Origin: a candidate division TA06 bacterium
Lineage (GTDB): Bacteria > Edwardsbacteria > AC1 > EtOH8
DNA: 64,000 nt
NCBI GenBank assembly: GCA_016235665.1
Contig: JACRJI010000014.1
Span: 62,001-126,000 of the forward strand
Direction of reading: 5' to 3'
The translations under genes were made by a program, and so were the position numbers. Positions 52,356 through 63,205 of the stretch are shown piece after piece (positions within the stretch are counted from its first letter, which is position 1; each line of letters starts with the position of its first letter). Under the pieces are notes generated by a model that did not search any database, had not been told where the DNA came from, and saw only the letters and a list, made by a program, of their open reading frames with translations.

Positions 52356-52703
52356 CTATTTCAGTAAACGCAGAATTTTCTCAAATGTTCTAATTCTCTT
52401 AATATTTGATTTCCTCAATTGCTTTGAAACACGTTCTATTGCCTGTTCTTTTGCGGTTGGCTCTTTAGGCGTACGTTTCTTTTTCTTAACCTTTGCGCCA
52501 GCACATAAGTCGCACATTTCAATGCCAAGGGCTTTGGTTATCTTTTCTATGGTTTTTACGGAAGTGCTGATCCGGCCCTGCTCTATAAAGCCGATATAAC
52601 GAAAATTTAACCCGGACTTCTCAGCTAACATGGTTTGAGTAAGGCCCTGTTCCTTGCGTATTCGGCGTATTTGGGAACTTATTTGTTTCATGAAAGTGGA
52701 CAT
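52356..52703 (-). CDS. XRE-family transcription regulator (XRE-2)
   Basis: A 115-residue protein with an N-terminal Cro/CI helix-turn-helix: QIRRIRKEQGLTQTMLAEKS, then GLNFRYIGFIEQGRISTSVK. The second half has a CDLC pair and a lysine-rich stretch (VKKKKRTPKEP) that differ from XRE-1. It is divergent from the second lipoprotein cluster, repeating the layout of XRE-1. Probably an autoregulated repressor or activator of the neighbouring genes. Confidence 0.87.
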   Translation of the reverse strand: MSTFMKQISSQIRRIRKEQGLTQTMLAEKSGLNFRYIGFIEQGRISTSVKTIEKITKALGIEMCDLCAGAKVKKKKRTPKEPTAKEQAIERVSKQLRKSNIKRIRTFEKILRLLK

Positions 52704-52746: not shown

Positions 52747-52776
52747 TTGACATTGTTGTAAGAATTATAGTATTAT
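52747..52776 (+). promoter_or_regulatory. sigma-70-type promoter upstream of the structured leader
   Basis: TTGACA (52747-52752), 18 bases, TATTAT (52771-52776). Transcription should start near 52784, about 190 bases before the lipoprotein ATG. Confidence 0.65.
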
Positions 52777-52799: not shown

Positions 52800-52975
52800 A
52801 GACATCGGCGTGAAGTCCCTTCCAGGAACTGAAATTGATAATAAATGGAAGGTTAGTTAAGGTTAATGAGAACGCGAAGAAAATAAAGCCTCAAATGTTT
52901 GCCTCACAATGGCAGGCATTGGGGCTTTTGTGTTTTAAGCTATCGCAAAAACAATTAAAGAGGTTAATAAAATTG
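52800..52975 (+). promoter_or_regulatory. structured leader with terminator, riboswitch-like or small RNA
   Basis: The leader can form CCTTCC / GGAAGG pairing (near 52819 and 52845) and a GGCGT / ACGCG pairing enclosing it, followed by an intrinsic-type terminator: AAAGCC-TCAAATGTTTGCC (52885-52903) against GGCAGGCATTGGGGCTTTT (52911-52929), with one bulge and G-U pairs, and TTTTGTGTTTT after it. A terminator between promoter and gene points to attenuation or to a separate small RNA. No known riboswitch class was recognised. Confidence 0.4.
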
Positions 52976-53773
52976 ATGACAAAAAAAACATTATCGTTAA
53001 TGTCCGCAACATTATTTATATTGATGTTTGCTAACTGTAGTAAAAAGGCTAATCCAGTTAATGTAATTAATATAATTAACGACCCTAAAATATTTTACTG
53101 TTGGTTACAAGTGCCCACTCAAAATGCAGTGTTATACTCGGATCCGATTACGGATCCATCAAATACCACTGTTACGATGATCTGGGGCAGCCACAATCAA
53201 ATGCTTCTGTCGAATATTAGTAACGGGCAGATGAATTTTTATTCCGACAGTGGGCATTATTTCGGAGATACAACTATAACCATTAAAATTACATCTGATT
53301 CTGATACCGGTATTGGATGCATTCAAGTGCCGAGTGGCACAAGCTTATTAACCCCAGCAGAACATGATACATTACCAATAGATAGTGTAAAGTGCATATG
53401 GACAAAGGCAGAGAGAGCGGATTGGTATAAAATATATAGCCATTCCTATGCATTAGATTCTTCTGGGTGTTGGGCAGGCACCATACGTAATATTGATACA
53501 TTTCTTTTTGATACCACTTTCACAATTCCACTCAGTTATTTTTCTGTGCCGAATGCAATCTATTACCAAATACAATTAATGGTTGAACCTTATGCCGGTC
53601 CCCAAATGATACCCAATTCAGAAGGCAATATTTCCGGCGATATCAAAGGATTTTTATATGGCATAGGAAATGCTGGCGGTAGTAATTTTTGTGTGGACAC
53701 ACGATTAAAAATGTTAAGATTAAACGGTTCTAATATAAATAATAAGGAGACAAATAATGTTAACCAAAAGTAA
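52976..53773 (+). CDS. hypothetical lipoprotein
   Basis: A 265-residue exported lipoprotein: MTKKTLSLMSATLFILMFAN with the lipobox FANC, Cys at about residue 21. The mature part has strands with FYCWLQVPTQNAVLYSDP and an FnIII-like segment (about 110-200: LLTPAEHDTLPIDSVKCIWT, ADWYKIYSHSYAL). No known family. The frame is open to 52835, but the ATG at 52976 starts the signal peptide. Its end overlaps the next lipoprotein by 17 bases. Confidence 0.65.
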   Translation: MTKKTLSLMSATLFILMFANCSKKANPVNVINIINDPKIFYCWLQVPTQNAVLYSDPITDPSNTTVTMIWGSHNQMLLSNISNGQMNFYSDSGHYFGDTTITIKITSDSDTGIGCIQVPSGTSLLTPAEHDTLPIDSVKCIWTKAERADWYKIYSHSYALDSSGCWAGTIRNIDTFLFDTTFTIPLSYFSVPNAIYYQIQLMVEPYAGPQMIPNSEGNISGDIKGFLYGIGNAGGSNFCVDTRLKMLRLNGSNINNKETNNVNQK

Positions 53774-54878
53774 ACATTTAATTTTAACACTTCTATTTAT
53801 GGTCCTTGCAGGATGCGTTAATGATAAGGCCTTGAATAAAAGCAATGATCCCATTATAAATAATAATGGGAAAGCAGGATTAACTGCTACGGGTATGACG
53901 GTAGATGTGCCTGGGCCATTGCTTAGATCTGAGATAATACTTGACGAAATGCCCGAGTTAGATAAATGGACCAAAGTAACGATAAAGGTAAAACTAAACC
54001 GCGATGCTAAGACATATTATACAGAGCCACATACCGAAGATTTTCCGGAGGGGCCCGAAATAATTCTTACTGGTAGTGAAGGAGTTGAATTAAATACTGT
54101 AAGCAAGGATAGAATAAATAATGGCATAAAAGGTCAGGAATACCGTGCCAGTTTTAAAATACGGCCATTTATGGTGGGCGGATTAGAAATCAATTCTAAC
54201 GGAGCAAGTATAAAGTTTACCTTAGATGACAATGGAAAAACTGTTTTTATGAAAAGCCGGGAAGAATGGGAAGTGATGATAGGACCAAAGCATGCTGCCG
54301 TGAAGAATATGGGCGAGGGCATAGATACTATGACGATATATCGCTATACGCCAGAACAGAATGAAATGATTAATAAATTATGGCCTCCAAAGTATCTTGC
54401 CCCAAAGAACAAACCTATTATTATTGTTACTCCAGAACGGATACAATTGGGTGAAATAGAAATAGTACCCGCTCCAGCCATAGGACACGTTTCCAAGGTT
54501 ATCTGGACGTTGAAGGCAAAGGATAGAGGAGAACTTCCTAAAGTTGAACAGTTAATGTCCTTTAAAAGTGTAGTCCACGCTAAGCCTGGCCAGGAATATG
54601 TTACCAAGGATCAGATTGAGGAATACAGAGACGCTTTTAAGTGTTCGGATATATCAGCTTGGGAAATAATGAATGATAGTACGTATGCCTTATCATTTAC
54701 CATAGAGCCTTTGATGATTATAAAAAATAGTGAAAATGGACGTCTAAGGATTTCATGGTGGTATGGTATGCCGCCTGAAAACAAATATGGAAGATATAAA
54801 TCAATTTACTTTGTTATCGGCGAAGATGGTAAATTAAAAACAATAGACGGCCATGAGATGAAGGAAACGGAAAAATGA
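53757..54878 (+). CDS. hypothetical lipoprotein
   Basis: A 373-residue exported lipoprotein with signal MLTKSKHLILTLLFMVLAGC (lipobox LAGC, Cys 20). The mature part reads like several Ig-like beta domains: WTKVTIKVKLNRDAKTYYTE, GGLEINSNGASIKFTLDDNG and IKNSENGRLRISWWYGMPPE, but no family was recognised. Overlaps at both ends: 17 bases with the previous gene and four (ATGA) with the giant secreted protein gene, so the three genes are co-translated and their products probably act together at the cell surface. Confidence 0.65.
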   Translation: MLTKSKHLILTLLFMVLAGCVNDKALNKSNDPIINNNGKAGLTATGMTVDVPGPLLRSEIILDEMPELDKWTKVTIKVKLNRDAKTYYTEPHTEDFPEGPEIILTGSEGVELNTVSKDRINNGIKGQEYRASFKIRPFMVGGLEINSNGASIKFTLDDNGKTVFMKSREEWEVMIGPKHAAVKNMGEGIDTMTIYRYTPEQNEMINKLWPPKYLAPKNKPIIIVTPERIQLGEIEIVPAPAIGHVSKVIWTLKAKDRGELPKVEQLMSFKSVVHAKPGQEYVTKDQIEEYRDAFKCSDISAWEIMNDSTYALSFTIEPLMIIKNSENGRLRISWWYGMPPENKYGRYKSIYFVIGEDGKLKTIDGHEMKETEK

Positions 54879-57800
54879 AGACGATCAGATTTATTAATCT
54901 TTGCCTTTTCTCTTTGGCGATATTTACTGGTTTTGCCATTGCAGAGAAAAAGGAAATAGAAGCTAAGAGAACCGCTACATCTAAGGTATTTAGAAACGAC
55001 GACGGCACGCATACATTTCAGATTTATACAGAACCAAAGCATTATTATGAAGGGGGCAAATGGAAGGAGATAGATACCAAAATAGTCCCATACGGCAAAG
55101 ATGGGTATGATTATGCCTGTTTGACAAGTGATATAAAAACATATTTCAAAGGCAACGAAGGCCTATTTGGAGTAACTGATAAAAAATATAAATGGAACTT
55201 GATTGAAATAACTGATAATGATAAACATAACTTTAGATATATAAAAGCTGACCTCAAGCAGAATAAAGACAACAGTATAATATATAAATACGGGCAGAAT
55301 GGGGCTTTAACTTGGATCACTACAGCTAAAGGATTGAGTTGGATATATAAGGGTTCAAATCTTAAAAAAATAATATATCGTTTGAGCATACCAAGGGAAT
55401 ATTCTTTATATCAAGGGAAAGAGAGAATAAATTCTAGAATAAAAATTAAAAACAACCTAACAGCTTGCGATTCTTTAAGCGCATTTATGGCTGGGATTTC
55501 AATCCCTTTTGCTTTTCGGGAAAATAACGAAAAGATGGGGTTGGTTCTAGAAAATACAGTGGAGATGATAAATGCTGGCGAATATGAGTTTATATCGGAA
55601 ATCACTGACAGCAAGACCGATGATTCAATATCAGTAAAATCTCAATCATGGTTATTCACAGCCGGTAATGACGCTTTCATTGCATCTGGATATCCGGACA
55701 GCTATAATAACACTTATAATTTATGGGTGGGATACGATTCAACCTATGGATTCAAAAAGGAGCGAAGTTTATTAAGATTTGATGTGAGTCCGCTTGCCGG
55801 TGGAGCCAGTGTGACTTCAGCAACATTTAGCGCCAGGGTAAAAGGTTATACCGGTCCGGCAAATACTACATGCAATGTTACCGCCTACCGAGCGACTTCG
55901 TCATGGACTGAAGGTGGAGCTACTTGGAATAATATGTCAAGTTATTATTCAGAAAGCTATGGCACGCAGTCTGTCGGAGATACGGGTCGTTACAACTGGG
56001 ATGTAAAAAACCTATCTCAATATTGGATAAGTGGAACTTACAATAATTATGGCTTAATGTTGATCGCTGCCAATGAAAGCGGCGGGGATAAGGAGCGTTA
56101 CTTTTATTCGGACGAAAGTGGGACGTATGTGCCGTCACTTAATATTACATGCAATCTTCCCGATTTGATAACCTATACTCCATCGGGTTGGGACGATAAG
56201 ATTGTTGCTTCATCTGTTACCGGCACTAATACTACCAATACGTTGTATGCCCAAAAACCAACTTATATTGATTTAGCCATAATGAACAATACTTCGGTTT
56301 CAGTTATTAAGGGGTTCTATGTTAAAATATATTTGGACGGTAGTGAAATAAATACGCAATATTGTAGTAGCTTAAGCGGCAATACCAGTAAAACATGGTC
56401 AGATATAAATTACACCGTATATACACCCGGATGGCATAAGATTAAAATTGTAATTGATACTACCGGCGATATAACAGAAGAAAGCGAAACAAACAATTCG
56501 TATGAAAAGTTATTCTATTGGAAACGGCTACCGGATTTGTGGCCAGGTGTTATTACCACTTCCTCGCCACTTATTACAAACGAACCTTGCACTATTTACT
56601 GGAGCGTGTGGAATACCGGCGATACAATTTCAGGTGGATTTTATACCGGGCTTTATGTTGACGGGAATAAAAAAGATAATCAATATTTAAGCAGTTTAGC
56701 GGCCGGCGGCTATCAACCGTTTACTACAACTTATACCGCAACGACTGGCGGAAATCATACCATAAAAGTTATTTGCGATTCTTCTAATCAGGTTATGGAA
56801 ATTGACGACAGTCCCTCGGATAACATACTTACATATACTGCCAGTTGGAATACAAGGCCCAATGCGTGTACAAATCCTTCGCCTGTCAATGGTGTTACAG
56901 GAGTTGATTTAAGCGTTATCCTTCAATGGTATTGCACTGATCCTGATGGTCAGGCAATTACAAAATACCGTCTTCAATTATCCACAGATTCAACATTTAC
57001 CTCTACAGTGTTTGACGGTGAAGTTACCGCAAATTCTTATCAAGCCACCAACCTGTGGCGCGCTACTAAATATTATTGGCGGGTTAAAGGTTATGACGGT
57101 AGCCTTTGGTGCAATACCTGGAATACTTGGCGATTTACCACGGCGGATAATCAGTTTTGGGTTAGCGGCCATGTTAAGTATAAAAACCTTGATGATAATA
57201 CTATAAAAGGCATACCCCAGGCTTGGGTGGTATTGTATGACACAAACGATGCAACACCAAGATATATAGATTCTGTAAAAACATTAAGTGACGGTAGCTT
57301 CAATTTTGGTTTTGTTACCGCTGCTTCATTTGACCCAAAATTTATAATCCATACCAAACTAATAAACGAAATTTGTGTTGTAAAAGATACAGTTCCAAGT
57401 ATATATACCGATATTTCAGATACATCAAGTTGCCAAATATATCCCTCCGGTATTACCACGATATATCGGGGAATAAATGAAACTGGTAAAGACAGCATTT
57501 TTAACCAAGCATGCCATATCTTTGATGCCATTAACCAAACGTATAATTGGGTGGATAACAACACCAGTCCAAACTGGAAAAGGTCACAGATAACCGTATC
57601 GTACAATTATACGAATACCGATAGCACCAGCAGGTTCAGACCTGTCCCGGTTGGAATCGGTAGTATCATTATTACAGGCAAACCTCAAGTATTGTTGAGA
57701 TCGGGTTTAATAGTGCCCGGTTACAGATCGGAGAGGCCCTATCACGAATATGCCCATGCTATAATGTACAAAGTTTATGGAGATACTTTCCCACCGGGCT

Positions 57801-60800
57801 ATGGCGTTTCTGAACATTACCCATATAAGGTAACTAACCCTGGCAATGCCACAACCGAGGGCTTTGCCGAGTTTCTTCCTTGTGCAGTAAAGAACAACAA
57901 GGACTATCTGGTTTATTACAAGAGCTCTTATAACACCACGATGCAAGATGTCGAAACCAACCAGTGGCATTATACCGGTGATGCAGTAAGCATTGAGGGT
58001 GCAGTGGCTTCAATCTGGTGGGATATGCAGGACACCTTTACCGACTCCGACGAAGATTCTGGAGGACTATCAAACAAGTTCAGTAATATATTTAGTATTT
58101 TGAAAGATAATAAAATAAGAAACATAAGTCAGTTTTACAGTTATTACCGTTCTAATCCCGCTTTAGCAGGGGATACTTCAAAATTAAAGAGGATATATTA
58201 TAAGCACGGTATAGATTATTACAAGGCAGTTTTAGGATTTGAAGTATGGCAATCACCGCCAATAAACAATCCAGTGCCGAATCAAAGCGGTTGCGTGAAT
58301 ATCAATAGCGATACTACTGGAATAGAAAACGGCGTATATCCACACAACGGCGATTACATGTATAGATTATCAGGCACAGATGCCAGCAGTGATAACAGTT
58401 ATGCCTTTGTTAATTTATTTGACGTTAATATACCACTAATACCAGGCCCCAACTATGCTGCAAAATATTTATCATTTTGGGTATATATTGTAGAATCACC
58501 TGGCGCTGGTTGCATAAGCCTCGAACTTGTTACAGCTAAAAAAGGTGCTATACGGGATTACAACTATAAAGGAATGTATATTTCTGATCAATTCGGCCAA
58601 AGATTGCATCCAGCCGGCCGCAATGTCCCGAAAGGTCAATGGGTAAACTATATATGTGACCTTTCGATCCTAAACCCATCAATATACGCTGACGATACAC
58701 TTAGACAAATACAGGTGGCATATGATGATGGGAATTCAGCCGAAACAGGTGATTATTTGGCATATATAGATGATATTGAAATAAGTGAGTTTTCATATCC
58801 GACATTTGCCTGGGGTTACGTGGAGGATCCCACAACAGTTAAAGTAAGTTGGAATGATAATAATATTGACGAAGATGGTTTCCATGTGTGGTGGAAAAAC
58901 CAAAGTGACAGCACATTTATCAATCCGCCACTTTGGGTTGATTCGGTTTCAGGTATGGGAGGGAAAGGATATTGTACAATAACCGGGCTTTCAACGGGGA
59001 GTAGCTACAATTTTATGGTTCGCTCCAAACGAGGTGAACAGGTATCCGCATACGAATGGAGATACGCAACATCAAAAATAGCGGCTCCCGAAACACCAGC
59101 TCCACCAAGTGCGAAATTCCATACTCCCTCTTTAGAAATAAATGATACTATTCCATCTATTAATGTAAATAACGCACACTACGACTATAGTTCCAATATA
59201 TTTGAATGGGAAAGGAAGATTGACTCGACAGGCGTATGGACAAAAATAAAGGAAACGCCTTCTTGGTATGTTGTCGGCCATACTGATGCAACAAATATTA
59301 TTGATTCAAACATTATTTTTAATCATGATTATTATTATCGCTTGAGAGCCTATAATGGTTGTGGCAAATCAGAATATTCGGTAGAAACAAAAATACCGAT
59401 ATATTTTAAACCCCCAACAAACACAAATGCTATTGCATATGAAGCAGTAGATCCTTTATCCGGAACACATACATTGAAAATTGATTTATCATGGGGGGAT
59501 AATTCAACCATCGAAGCAGGGACATTAGTCTTTATAAAAAAAGCAGGGGGTGATTCATTTGTGGTTGCATTAGGCCCAAATATCACTAGTGCTTCAATAA
59601 GTGGTTATTGGGATGGTCAATGGCATTCCATTGAACCACTTTCCACCTATTATATTAAAGTAGCTCAGTATTGGATGTATTATAATGGATATAGAAGGAC
59701 CGAATATTCCAATACGGTTGAGGTATTTGTTCCCAAGATCGGCTATACCAATAATAACAACGCCCGCAAGCTGTTCCGTGGTGGCGATGACAAACTGAAC
59801 GCAACATTCTATGATGGAACACAGATTTATTGGGCCTCGTCAATCAACAATGGTTTATCGTGGTCTGTAACGGCGCCAAAAACCGGCGGCAATCCGACCG
59901 TTGCCGAGAAGAAAAGCAACAGCGCAATCTACTCGGTGCGGGTGAAGAAAGACAGCCTGTTGTTGGACAGCCTGGGCGTAACTTCGGGCTTTGGCAAGGT
60001 CATAAAAACCGGCGCTAAGATGTTCAACCCGGCCATTGCCACCGATAGTCTGGGTAACCTATATTGCGCTTGGGCGGAAACGGTATTGGCTATTGAAACA
60101 AGGTATGATCCTTTTGGTAGGTTTATAGAACACCGTTGGACATATACAATGAAGGTTCAATATGCAAAAAGAACAGGAGGTGTTTGGTCTTCACCGTCCG
60201 TGCTTCAGCCAATATCTGTATCTACGACGGGGTGGCAAGATTTCCCACCTTCGCCTTTCGATGAATTTATTGACATATCAAGTCCATCAATAGCGGTAAA
60301 TAAATCAGGCAATAGTATTTTACCCCATATAACCTGGGAACATAAACATGGAAGTTACAATATGTTTTCCGGGTGGTCCTTGGATACTTCAATAATATAT
60401 CATTATAATGCTGGAACATCTATTGGCATGACAGTAAGCGCCACAGGCGTTCTGGCAAGCTCTCCCTGCTTGGGAGTGAATAACGATGGCGCATTGGTTT
60501 TAGCATGGCAGCAAAATGGTGACATTTACCGAAGCACCAACAACGGAAGTGCCTGGAGCACGCCTTACAACGTTAGCAACAATACCGGGGCTTCGCAGAT
60601 GCCGACAGTGGCCTGCGACAAGGGCGGCACGTTGCATTTTCTCTGGTATGACGACAGTGACAGCGGTTTTGTGCAAAAGATATCAACCTTGCCTGTCGGA
60701 ACCGACGCAAAATTGGCTATAGCAAAACTTACCGAACTACCGCAAGGTGAGGAGTCGATAGTTTGGGAAGATGTACAAAAAGTAGAGATTGATAGTCTGA

Positions 60801-63205
60801 ACCAAGCATTAACAAAGGCTGCGGCGGCAGAAGACCTGACCGGGACAATCAATGAGAATCAGATATTCTACCGTAGGTATAAAAACAACGCTTGGTCGCC
60901 CATTTACAGGCTGACAGCCAGCGAAGATATTTCAGTTTACCCGGCATTGCCGCTTACCGATGACCCGGCTCAGATGGGCTTTTTATGGACCGAGGGCAAT
61001 TATGTAAAATACAAACGTCTTCCCGATTTAGATGGACCAACTGTGGCGGTAACATACCCCAACGGCGGAGAAGTGCTTTATTCCGGCAGGAGGTATAATA
61101 TAACTTGGTCCAGCACCGATAACCGGGGTATAAAATCGTACGTTTTGTATTACACCACTAACTATATTGCACAAGACGATCCAACAAGCACGGATGCAGT
61201 TACACTTTGGCGTTCTGTGGCGACCATAGTGGGCGGACTTAATTACTACTCCTGGCGGGTGCCGTATAATGTGGCTTCAACCAACTGCCGGTTCAAGGTC
61301 GTGGCTTACGATTCCAGCGGCAACACCGCAACAGACATCAGCGACAAAAACTTTACCATCAAAAGCCGTGATATTATAGTGGTGGAAACGGACAAAGCCA
61401 TAGCCTACAATAACGCCGGGAAAATAGCCCGATCCAGCGACGGATTGTTGCATGTTTGCTATAACAGCATAGATAGTGTGCACTATCTCTCCTCGTCGAA
61501 CGATGGACAAACCTGGGCAACCCCGCTTAACTTAGGTAAAGGATCTTTACCGACGATTGTAACTGACAGTAAGAACATGCCTGCCCTGGCCTGGATAAAA
61601 CAATGGGACCATGATACTGGTGGCGGAGTATTCTTTAGCCGTCAGACCGCAACCGGCTGGTCTGTACCCGAAACCTTGGCTTATATGCAAGGTGTTCCCT
61701 GGGATTATATAGGAGGGTATTCACCCCCGGCTATGACCATAAAGAACGACACCATCTCGCTGGTCTTTGAATACTCCTATGGTGGGGGCATACCGCCGCA
61801 TATCGCAAAAGGATGGGCTTTGCACCATACCCGGTTTGCCATAAATAACATTTCTGGCAAAAAAGATACTATCCTTGACGCATACACCGAAACAATAGAT
61901 CCCCCGATCTGGCAAGCTCCAGCCTCAGCATCAATTGCCACCGACTATAAAGGCTATGATCATATCAGCTGGCACCGAAAAGACAAGGTCTATTACCGGA
62001 TGAGAAAACCGGATGGCAACTACGGCAACATTCTCCAACTCTCTGGTTCAGGAATAGCCCAAAACCCCTGTATCAGCATTTCCGGGGTAGCTTCAGCCGT
62101 TTGGGTGGAAGATGGCGACATTTACCAGCGTACCGGATTTGATCAGAAGTGGGAAACAGCCGTAAACATCAGCGCATCCGGGGCAAGCTCCATGATGCCA
62201 TATATCTGTGGTAGCGATGTGCTTTGGACCGAGGATGTTTTAAGTGATTACGAGGTATATTTATCGTCCTATTCTACAGCCAAGATGACCTACGATGTGT
62301 CCGAAAACCTGTCTTGCACCGATTACGCTTCGATCTTCCCCCACGAAACTAAACTGCAAACCAATGAGGGGACGAAAACCTATCGCATTTGGGCGGAGGA
62401 AATTGAGCCAGAATTACTGTGGGGGCTAACCTTTATGGCAGATACCACGGAATTGGAGCCCACCTACGCCTTAGATGCCGGGTTAGCGGAGCCGTCAATA
62501 TTTACTGTGCAAAGAGATGGGTATATAACTTACGGCACGGCAGCCAAAGCCAAAAACACAGTTACCGAACCCTTTAAAACCGTGGATTATGACACTACTG
62601 CCCTGATATACAGCTTTGACAACTTTGATCCGGACAAGAAGTATAAAATCACTTTGAGCTTTTATCAGGAAACCGGGCAGGAGATCAAACTTAAGCCAAT
62701 CGTCAATAAGCTGCCTTTGGGTGAGATAAAGGTAACTTCAGGCGAAGAAGCGATTTTGGACAAGCCTTTGCCCGAAGCCAGTTATAAAGACGGGCAGATC
62801 ACGCTAACCATAGAAAAAACAAAAGGTCCGATTGCAGTTTGTGGCAAGATACTTATTTACGAAAATCCGACAGGCCAGGGACACGGTGGGACGCAATCGG
62901 AAGAGATAACCAGTATTACACCCAATTACATTAACAAACTTTACCAGAACTGCCCAAATCCCTTCAGCCATAAAACGAGTTTCATGTACCAAATCAAAAA
63001 CCAGGGCCAGGTAACGTTTAAAGTGTATAATGCCCTGGGGCAGTTGGTAAGAACCTTGGTTAATGAAATTAAACCGGCCGGGACTTATCAGGTGGAATGG
63101 GACGGGAAAGACGGGTGCGGTAGGCAGGTATCTTCGGGAGTTTATCTTTACAATATTAGTACCGGAGCCTTTGAATCAACCAAGAAGCTCATAGTTCTTA
63201 AATAG
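54875..63205 (+). CDS. giant secreted multidomain protein with zinc-metalloprotease motif and C-terminal sorting domain
   Basis: A 2776-residue exported protein. Approximate order: signal peptide (1-22); N-terminal domain; DNRLRE-type domain (265-425, LWVGYDSTYGFKKERSLLRF); two CARDB domains (430-655); FnIII-like (660-765); carboxypeptidase-regulatory-like (770-865); a domain with H957-E-Y-A-H961 and E995/E999 in EGFAEF, a gluzincin-like zinc site; carbohydrate-binding-like part (1140-1310); FnIII domains (1315-1590); two sialidase-like propellers (about 1600-2030 and 2150-2500) parted by an Ig-like domain (YPNGGEVLYSGRRYNITWSS); and the FlgD-like sorting domain (2690-2776: NCPNPFSHKTSFMYQI, LVRTLVNEIKPAGTY, KKLIVLK). 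It is probably exported by type IX secretion and could degrade surface or prey proteins. Confidence 0.85.
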   Translation: MKTIRFINLCLFSLAIFTGFAIAEKKEIEAKRTATSKVFRNDDGTHTFQIYTEPKHYYEGGKWKEIDTKIVPYGKDGYDYACLTSDIKTYFKGNEGLFGVTDKKYKWNLIEITDNDKHNFRYIKADLKQNKDNSIIYKYGQNGALTWITTAKGLSWIYKGSNLKKIIYRLSIPREYSLYQGKERINSRIKIKNNLTACDSLSAFMAGISIPFAFRENNEKMGLVLENTVEMINAGEYEFISEITDSKTDDSISVKSQSWLFTAGNDAFIASGYPDSYNNTYNLWVGYDSTYGFKKERSLLRFDVSPLAGGASVTSATFSARVKGYTGPANTTCNVTAYRATSSWTEGGATWNNMSSYYSESYGTQSVGDTGRYNWDVKNLSQYWISGTYNNYGLMLIAANESGGDKERYFYSDESGTYVPSLNITCNLPDLITYTPSGWDDKIVASSVTGTNTTNTLYAQKPTYIDLAIMNNTSVSVIKGFYVKIYLDGSEINTQYCSSLSGNTSKTWSDINYTVYTPGWHKIKIVIDTTGDITEESETNNSYEKLFYWKRLPDLWPGVITTSSPLITNEPCTIYWSVWNTGDTISGGFYTGLYVDGNKKDNQYLSSLAAGGYQPFTTTYTATTGGNHTIKVICDSSNQVMEIDDSPSDNILTYTASWNTRPNACTNPSPVNGVTGVDLSVILQWYCTDPDGQAITKYRLQLSTDSTFTSTVFDGEVTANSYQATNLWRATKYYWRVKGYDGSLWCNTWNTWRFTTADNQFWVSGHVKYKNLDDNTIKGIPQAWVVLYDTNDATPRYIDSVKTLSDGSFNFGFVTAASFDPKFIIHTKLINEICVVKDTVPSIYTDISDTSSCQIYPSGITTIYRGINETGKDSIFNQACHIFDAINQTYNWVDNNTSPNWKRSQITVSYNYTNTDSTSRFRPVPVGIGSIIITGKPQVLLRSGLIVPGYRSERPYHEYAHAIMYKVYGDTFPPGYGVSEHYPYKVTNPGNATTEGFAEFLPCAVKNNKDYLVYYKSSYNTTMQDVETNQWHYTGDAVSIEGAVASIWWDMQDTFTDSDEDSGGLSNKFSNIFSILKDNKIRNISQFYSYYRSNPALAGDTSKLKRIYYKHGIDYYKAVLGFEVWQSPPINNPVPNQSGCVNINSDTTGIENGVYPHNGDYMYRLSGTDASSDNSYAFVNLFDVNIPLIPGPNYAAKYLSFWVYIVESPGAGCISLELVTAKKGAIRDYNYKGMYISDQFGQRLHPAGRNVPKGQWVNYICDLSILNPSIYADDTLRQIQVAYDDGNSAETGDYLAYIDDIEISEFSYPTFAWGYVEDPTTVKVSWNDNNIDEDGFHVWWKNQSDSTFINPPLWVDSVSGMGGKGYCTITGLSTGSSYNFMVRSKRGEQVSAYEWRYATSKIAAPETPAPPSAKFHTPSLEINDTIPSINVNNAHYDYSSNIFEWERKIDSTGVWTKIKETPSWYVVGHTDATNIIDSNIIFNHDYYYRLRAYNGCGKSEYSVETKIPIYFKPPTNTNAIAYEAVDPLSGTHTLKIDLSWGDNSTIEAGTLVFIKKAGGDSFVVALGPNITSASISGYWDGQWHSIEPLSTYYIKVAQYWMYYNGYRRTEYSNTVEVFVPKIGYTNNNNARKLFRGGDDKLNATFYDGTQIYWASSINNGLSWSVTAPKTGGNPTVAEKKSNSAIYSVRVKKDSLLLDSLGVTSGFGKVIKTGAKMFNPAIATDSLGNLYCAWAETVLAIETRYDPFGRFIEHRWTYTMKVQYAKRTGGVWSSPSVLQPISVSTTGWQDFPPSPFDEFIDISSPSIAVNKSGNSILPHITWEHKHGSYNMFSGWSLDTSIIYHYNAGTSIGMTVSATGVLASSPCLGVNNDGALVLAWQQNGDIYRSTNNGSAWSTPYNVSNNTGASQMPTVACDKGGTLHFLWYDDSDSGFVQKISTLPVGTDAKLAIAKLTELPQGEESIVWEDVQKVEIDSLNQALTKAAAAEDLTGTINENQIFYRRYKNNAWSPIYRLTASEDISVYPALPLTDDPAQMGFLWTEGNYVKYKRLPDLDGPTVAVTYPNGGEVLYSGRRYNITWSSTDNRGIKSYVLYYTTNYIAQDDPTSTDAVTLWRSVATIVGGLNYYSWRVPYNVASTNCRFKVVAYDSSGNTATDISDKNFTIKSRDIIVVETDKAIAYNNAGKIARSSDGLLHVCYNSIDSVHYLSSSNDGQTWATPLNLGKGSLPTIVTDSKNMPALAWIKQWDHDTGGGVFFSRQTATGWSVPETLAYMQGVPWDYIGGYSPPAMTIKNDTISLVFEYSYGGGIPPHIAKGWALHHTRFAINNISGKKDTILDAYTETIDPPIWQAPASASIATDYKGYDHISWHRKDKVYYRMRKPDGNYGNILQLSGSGIAQNPCISISGVASAVWVEDGDIYQRTGFDQKWETAVNISASGASSMMPYICGSDVLWTEDVLSDYEVYLSSYSTAKMTYDVSENLSCTDYASIFPHETKLQTNEGTKTYRIWAEEIEPELLWGLTFMADTTELEPTYALDAGLAEPSIFTVQRDGYITYGTAAKAKNTVTEPFKTVDYDTTALIYSFDNFDPDKKYKITLSFYQETGQEIKLKPIVNKLPLGEIKVTSGEEAILDKPLPEASYKDGQITLTIEKTKGPIAVCGKILIYENPTGQGHGGTQSEEITSITPNYINKLYQNCPNPFSHKTSFMYQIKNQGQVTFKVYNALGQLVRTLVNEIKPAGTYQVEWDGKDGCGRQVSSGVYLYNISTGAFESTKKLIVLK

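Follow-up and report, generated by a model that had tools for sequence, protein, structure and literature searches.

The DNA analysed here (the window, 64,000 nucleotides) is part of a contig of 213,772 bases in a genome of 2.7 Mb, whose phylum is represented in our genome collection by 10 genomes only, all of one family. Near the end of the window, three genes follow one another on the forward strand: lip1, lip2, and the gene for protein A, a predicted modular exported metallopeptidase. Overlaps amount to 17 bp between lip1 and lip2 (53757-53773) and to 4 bp between lip2 and A (54875-54878). A short XRE-type regulator (window positions 52356-52703, reverse strand) is divergent from lip1-lip2-A, and the gap contains promoter-like sites on both strands. 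The features of the locus are as follows.

52747..52776, + strand: promoter-like site TTGACA-18-TATTAT ahead of lip1; such sites are about as frequent in the region as chance would give
52976..53773, + strand: lip1, listed as open reading frame 52835-53773 with a probable start at 52976; poor lipobox FAN/C
53757..54878, + strand: lip2, 373 aa; signal with a good lipobox LAG/C
54875..63205, + strand: protein A, 2776 aa; starts with ATG and runs without an internal stop
54875..54943, + strand: putative signal peptide, residues ~1-23, read from the sequence
55655..56149, + strand: DNRLRE/CBM96 domain, residues 261-425 (library matches)
56162..56809, + strand: two CARDB domains, residues ~430-645, best stretch 553-645 (library matches in two stretches)
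57470..58264, + strand: gluzincin-like catalytic domain, residues ~866-1130 (family profile; profile relation to M36)
57743..57757, + strand: HEYAH, H957-E958-Y-A-H961
57815..57817, + strand: H981, an extra invariant His between HExxH and the Glu
57857..57859, + strand: E995 (EGFA), candidate third zinc ligand
57995..58033, + strand: downstream motif EGxVxxxxWDxxD, with E1041, D1050, and D1053
61247..63202, + strand: shared C-terminal scaffold, residues 2125-2776, recurring with other enzyme heads
62954..63196, + strand: T9SS type A sorting domain, residues 2694-2774

A preliminary description had seen in protein A a chain of DNRLRE, CARDB, and FnIII domains ending in a sorting tail, and library searches bear this out. 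DNRLRE (NF033679, E value of 3e-32) and CBM96 (2e-16) were matched in a Pfam/NCBIfam search, as were the two CARDB domains (2e-24); fn3 was matched weakly and FlgD_ig was also matched. The tail scores 40.9 bits with TIGR04183 (cut-off of 23). The labels “propeller” and “carbohydrate-binding-like” (beyond DNRLRE/CBM96) derive from reading and internal similarity, without library matches.

A search with a 300-aa query yielded a single paralogue (B), encoded in the genome of protein A, and one protein (C) of a candidate division KSB1 metagenome-assembled genome.

L003:6583-14889: paralogue B, 2768 aa; HEYAH at 926, EGWAEF; same arrangement as protein A
L004:5572-8007: KSB1 relative C, 811 aa; HEYAH at 557

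A, B, and C group together in a single clade (92/94 support, rough bootstrap). With a profile of eight domains, 30 of 386 genomes gave matches, and these genomes belong to many families. Because some of the weakest matches are true M36 or M4-like proteins, the resulting ~8% is an upper bound for the family in the strict sense. A domain that occurs in up to one of twelve sampled bacterial genomes, bears a clear zinc-peptidase signature, and has no Pfam or NCBIfam model would amount to a real annotation gap for peptidases. No relatives were found in the scanned viral contigs. Gluzincin relatives of 1404 to 1437 aa in the same phylum carry the same kind of tail; across the relatives of protein A, accessory modules and tails differ widely. 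On Embleya megaplasmids there is a small relative with HELTH...EGFAEW (L011:2786-4654 and L012:2072-4657), where the PLSDB table has no gene.

Judged by its sequence, the chain outside the catalytic domain is a T9SS type A cargo scaffold, general for exoenzymes and with exchangeable heads. When A and B are compared in 60-residue blocks, they are 80-98% identical over residues 2041-2760, whereas the N-terminal part is 13-50% identical and the catalytic domain 22-47% identical. Other genomes of the same phylum also have residues 2125-2776, there behind different heads, namely, subtilisin (PF00082, 2e-29 and 1e-33), C13 (6e-10) and, more weakly, M23 (6e-6) and phospholipase C (9e-4); a head that resembles M6 is our own reading only. 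Because the same scaffold bears subtilisin, C13, and M23 heads within the phylum, it points to general exoenzyme export. Such a T9SS scaffold with swappable heads shows how exoenzymes are constructed in a poorly known phylum. A C-terminal query gave at least 74 matches in the genome of protein A, most of which are the sorting tail alone. The same genome has a SprA_N match (PF14349, 34.6 bits, cut-off of 27; partial, 365-498 of 510, in a 1897-aa open reading frame); the presence of the translocon was judged by SprA alone among the T9SS parts.

At L122-L135 (in G001, G002, G003, G005, G006, and G007), the scaffold stands behind beta-helix and NHL or Ycf48-like heads as well as the subtilisin, C13, M23, and phospholipase-like ones. 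A C25 (gingipain-type) peptidase with a propeptide and FG-GAP repeats is encoded in the window's own genome (L136:728-5518) and has only the sorting tail in common with A. Close to the G009 protease, a large open reading frame (L015:13659-19001, reverse strand) reads like a SprA-type T9SS translocon.

The predicted zinc motif of protein A is not a chance occurrence. H957, E958, H961, H981, E995, and G996 are present in all 22 aligned relatives, which come from many taxa and are 15-34% identical to protein A; E1041, D1050, and D1053 are each present in 21 of the 22. A separate alignment of 21 members agrees with this pattern, H981 being invariant there as well (21/21). In E995-G-F-A998, the Glu and Gly are shared by every relative and the Ala by 18/22; the reading of this downstream motif as ExxA type follows PMC6414381. 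HExxH with a catalytic Glu and a downstream third-ligand Glu are sequence hallmarks of gluzincin zinc peptidases (clan MA(E)), and the domain has both. The preliminary description had built a gluzincin site from H957 and H961 together with E995/E999. The positions are as described and the first three residues hold, whereas E999 is variable among relatives (E, N, D, H, and others), which leaves E995 alone as the candidate third ligand.

The HExxH-to-Glu spacing is 33 in protein A and 28-42 across its family. Within this segment, H981 lies 20 residues past the second zinc His (H961), and its counterpart comes after Gly-Gly-x in many relatives. C-terminal of E995, the 22-member alignment has no column with His in 80% or more of the sequences. 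In thermolysin and fungalysin, a His stabilises the transition state. Since no conserved His follows E995, this residue is missing here; H981 might take over its role, or it might block the zinc. H981 and the missing downstream His offer a specific and inexpensive test of how gluzincins can be rewired. AlphaFold2 models of residues 758-1135 and 866-1125 reached pLDDT values of 33.6 and 35.4, from two-row alignments only (protein A and the KSB1 relative at L004), and neither model is usable.

Neither Pfam nor NCBIfam yields a peptidase match for the HEYAH stretch, and permissive limits do not change this. In profile-profile comparisons, the domain was closest to M36-like sets (P of 3e-11 to 5e-11), followed by M1 (2e-5) and a strict M4 set (2e-3), with reversed controls at 0.2-0.3; these P values are single comparisons between small home-made alignments. 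An earlier, looser M4 set, with M36-like proteins among its members, reached 3e-7. When the PDB was searched with the 21-member profile, ten weak matches came back (E of 0.013 or worse), among them four fungalysin chains (4k90, 7qp3, 7z6t, and 7qfy) and four aminopeptidase N chains; the top match, a PPR protein, was taken as chance. In the alignment with 4k90, HExxH and EGW line up and H981 faces a nonhistidine residue. PF02128 did not match the domain over its cut-off. A library search found no FTP/PepSY propeptide in A, B, two relatives from the same phylum, or the KSB1 relative; it is present in the M36 proteins at L045/L046. The domain is therefore best called an uncharacterised gluzincin family, apparently a distant relative of M36 and not a member of it, because it has no PF02128 match, no FTP, a longer loop, and no conserved downstream His. 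One family member matched an aKG-HExxH hydroxylase model (TIGR04267, E of 0.0015), but locally at HExxH only and far below the cut-off, and this reading was rejected; matches to PF10405, PF00511, PF08388, PPR, and capsid models were treated as chance.

Of the two upstream genes, only lip2 is, on the grounds of recurrent neighbourhood, a real partner of protein A. Its family has three copies in the genome, every one beside one of the two gluzincin genes (A and B), and a fourth member accompanies the KSB1 protease.

L003:4128-5084: p1, lip2-family gene ahead of B
L003:5644-6570: p2, lip2-family gene ahead of B
L004:8021-9127: kl, fourth lip2-family member, after C; pairwise E of about 1e-4

Between p1 and p2 lies a free-standing 183-aa copy of the B N terminus (L003:5096-5647; 62% identical over 169 residues). 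This arrangement suggests a tandem duplication of the partner-protease pair as a unit, with truncation of one protease. No other credible member of the lip2 family was found in the 386 genomes, and lip1 has no relative at the L003 or L004 loci. Two co-translated lipoproteins had originally been proposed. The gene overlaps are real and the linkage of lip2 recurs at L003 and L004; the linkage of lip1 does not, and neither does lipidation. Of the three-gene set, only lip2 plus protease recurs (with B and in KSB1). A good lipobox is present in lip2 alone; p1, p2, and kl have plain signal peptides, so lipid anchoring is not essential to the pairing. Three weaker signals belong here: a lip2-like match in G278 (E of 0.005) looks on reading like another, PKD-like kind of protein and was treated as chance; a lip2-like domain fused to G001/G009 proteases (L013, L014, and L015) was suggested by eye, but the profile comparison is too weak for us to claim it (hhalign probability of 6%, P of 0.006); and an internal repeat in lip2 is only suggestive (P of 0.007).

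We consider it likely that protein A, borne on a T9SS cargo chain and served by a lip2-family partner, is secreted and works as a zinc metallopeptidase of a gluzincin family that is uncharacterised. The gene structure, the conserved residues, the family relation, the T9SS tail, the SprA-domain gene, the scaffold shared with other enzyme heads, and the lip2 linkage are observed; that protein A binds zinc and is active, where it is located, what it cleaves, and what the partner does are what we infer. A Sec signal would take protein A into the periplasm, and the C-terminal type A domain would guide its passage over the outer membrane by way of a SprA-type translocon. The DNRLRE/CBM96, CARDB, FnIII, and C-terminal repeat modules may bind a surface or polymer and so keep the peptidase close to its substrate, a protein that would be cleaved with H957, H961, and E995 as zinc ligands and E958 as general base. 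In related peptidases, the N-terminal FTP propeptide acts as chaperone and inhibitor. Since none was found here, the most economical guess for the lip2-family protein is a dedicated, separately secreted partner, most likely folding or inhibitory, in its place; this role is a guess based on adjacency.

More tentatively, and with rather less confidence than doubt, the family could be defined as new by the motif HExxH-x(15-28)-H-x(about 9-15)-EG, with H981 either substituting for the transition-state His or binding zinc as a fourth ligand that keeps the enzyme latent, and with lip2 replacing FTP in trans as chaperone or inhibitor.

The composition of the chain also invites the reading that protein A serves chiefly as a giant adhesin or as a surface protein that binds polymers, its HExxH domain being a degenerate, noncatalytic relative of peptidases: binding-type modules make up most of its length, the relatives have many different accessory modules and tails, and no His is conserved past E995. 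We regard this as unlikely, given that HExxH and the Glu, including the catalytic E958, are kept in 22/22 relatives of such low identity and that known catalytic heads sit on the same scaffold. Slightly less probable still is a plain M36 (fungalysin) or M4 domain missed by the library models. M36 is the nearest family in both the profile comparison and the PDB search, but the whole genome lacks a PF02128 or PF01447 match, and the missing FTP/PepSY in protein A, the spacing of 28-42 (versus about 16-23), the invariant H981, and the lack of a conserved His downstream argue against it. The surface-attack or prey-degrading system that had been proposed is very improbable: a large exported protease with binding modules and a lipoprotein alongside would suit it, and the lip2 linkage is compatible with, although not specific to, toxin-immunity pairing, but no immunity-like gene or toxin tip was recognised, just one of the two neighbours is conserved, with relatives that are no lipoproteins, and ordinary exoenzyme heads such as subtilisin, C13, and M23 sit on the same scaffold. 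Rather than a new weapon, protein A is in all likelihood a digestive enzyme that the cell exports and that belongs to an unusual family. The system is real and coherent, and it is better defined than in the preliminary description; its general kind is already known.

Among known peptidases, the closest counterpart is M36 fungalysin (PF02128; 4k90), which shares HExxH, a glutamate helix EG[WF]x-D/E, a downstream W-D/E stretch, and secretion. Although M36 is the best profile match, the domain stays below every M36 threshold; its spacing of 33 contrasts with ~16-23 in an M36-like set from the same collection, H981 is invariant in the family of protein A and missing in fungalysins, and the domain has neither an FTP propeptide nor a conserved His past the Glu ligand. 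M4 thermolysin (PF01447) has the same HExxH...E gluzincin layout, but the profile match of its strict set is far weaker, and the same features are missing. M1 aminopeptidase N (PF01433), also HExxH...E, is the second-best profile match, but the domain has no M1 library match and its context in protein A is secreted and modular. As for export, the closest counterparts are the T9SS type A cargo proteins known from Bacteroidota (reviewed in PMC10202324). Protein A resembles them in its signal peptide and TIGR04183 C-terminal domain and in being a modular secreted enzyme, a class that includes peptidases; it differs in belonging to a small phylum, in the very long scaffold common to several heads, and in its partner lip2.
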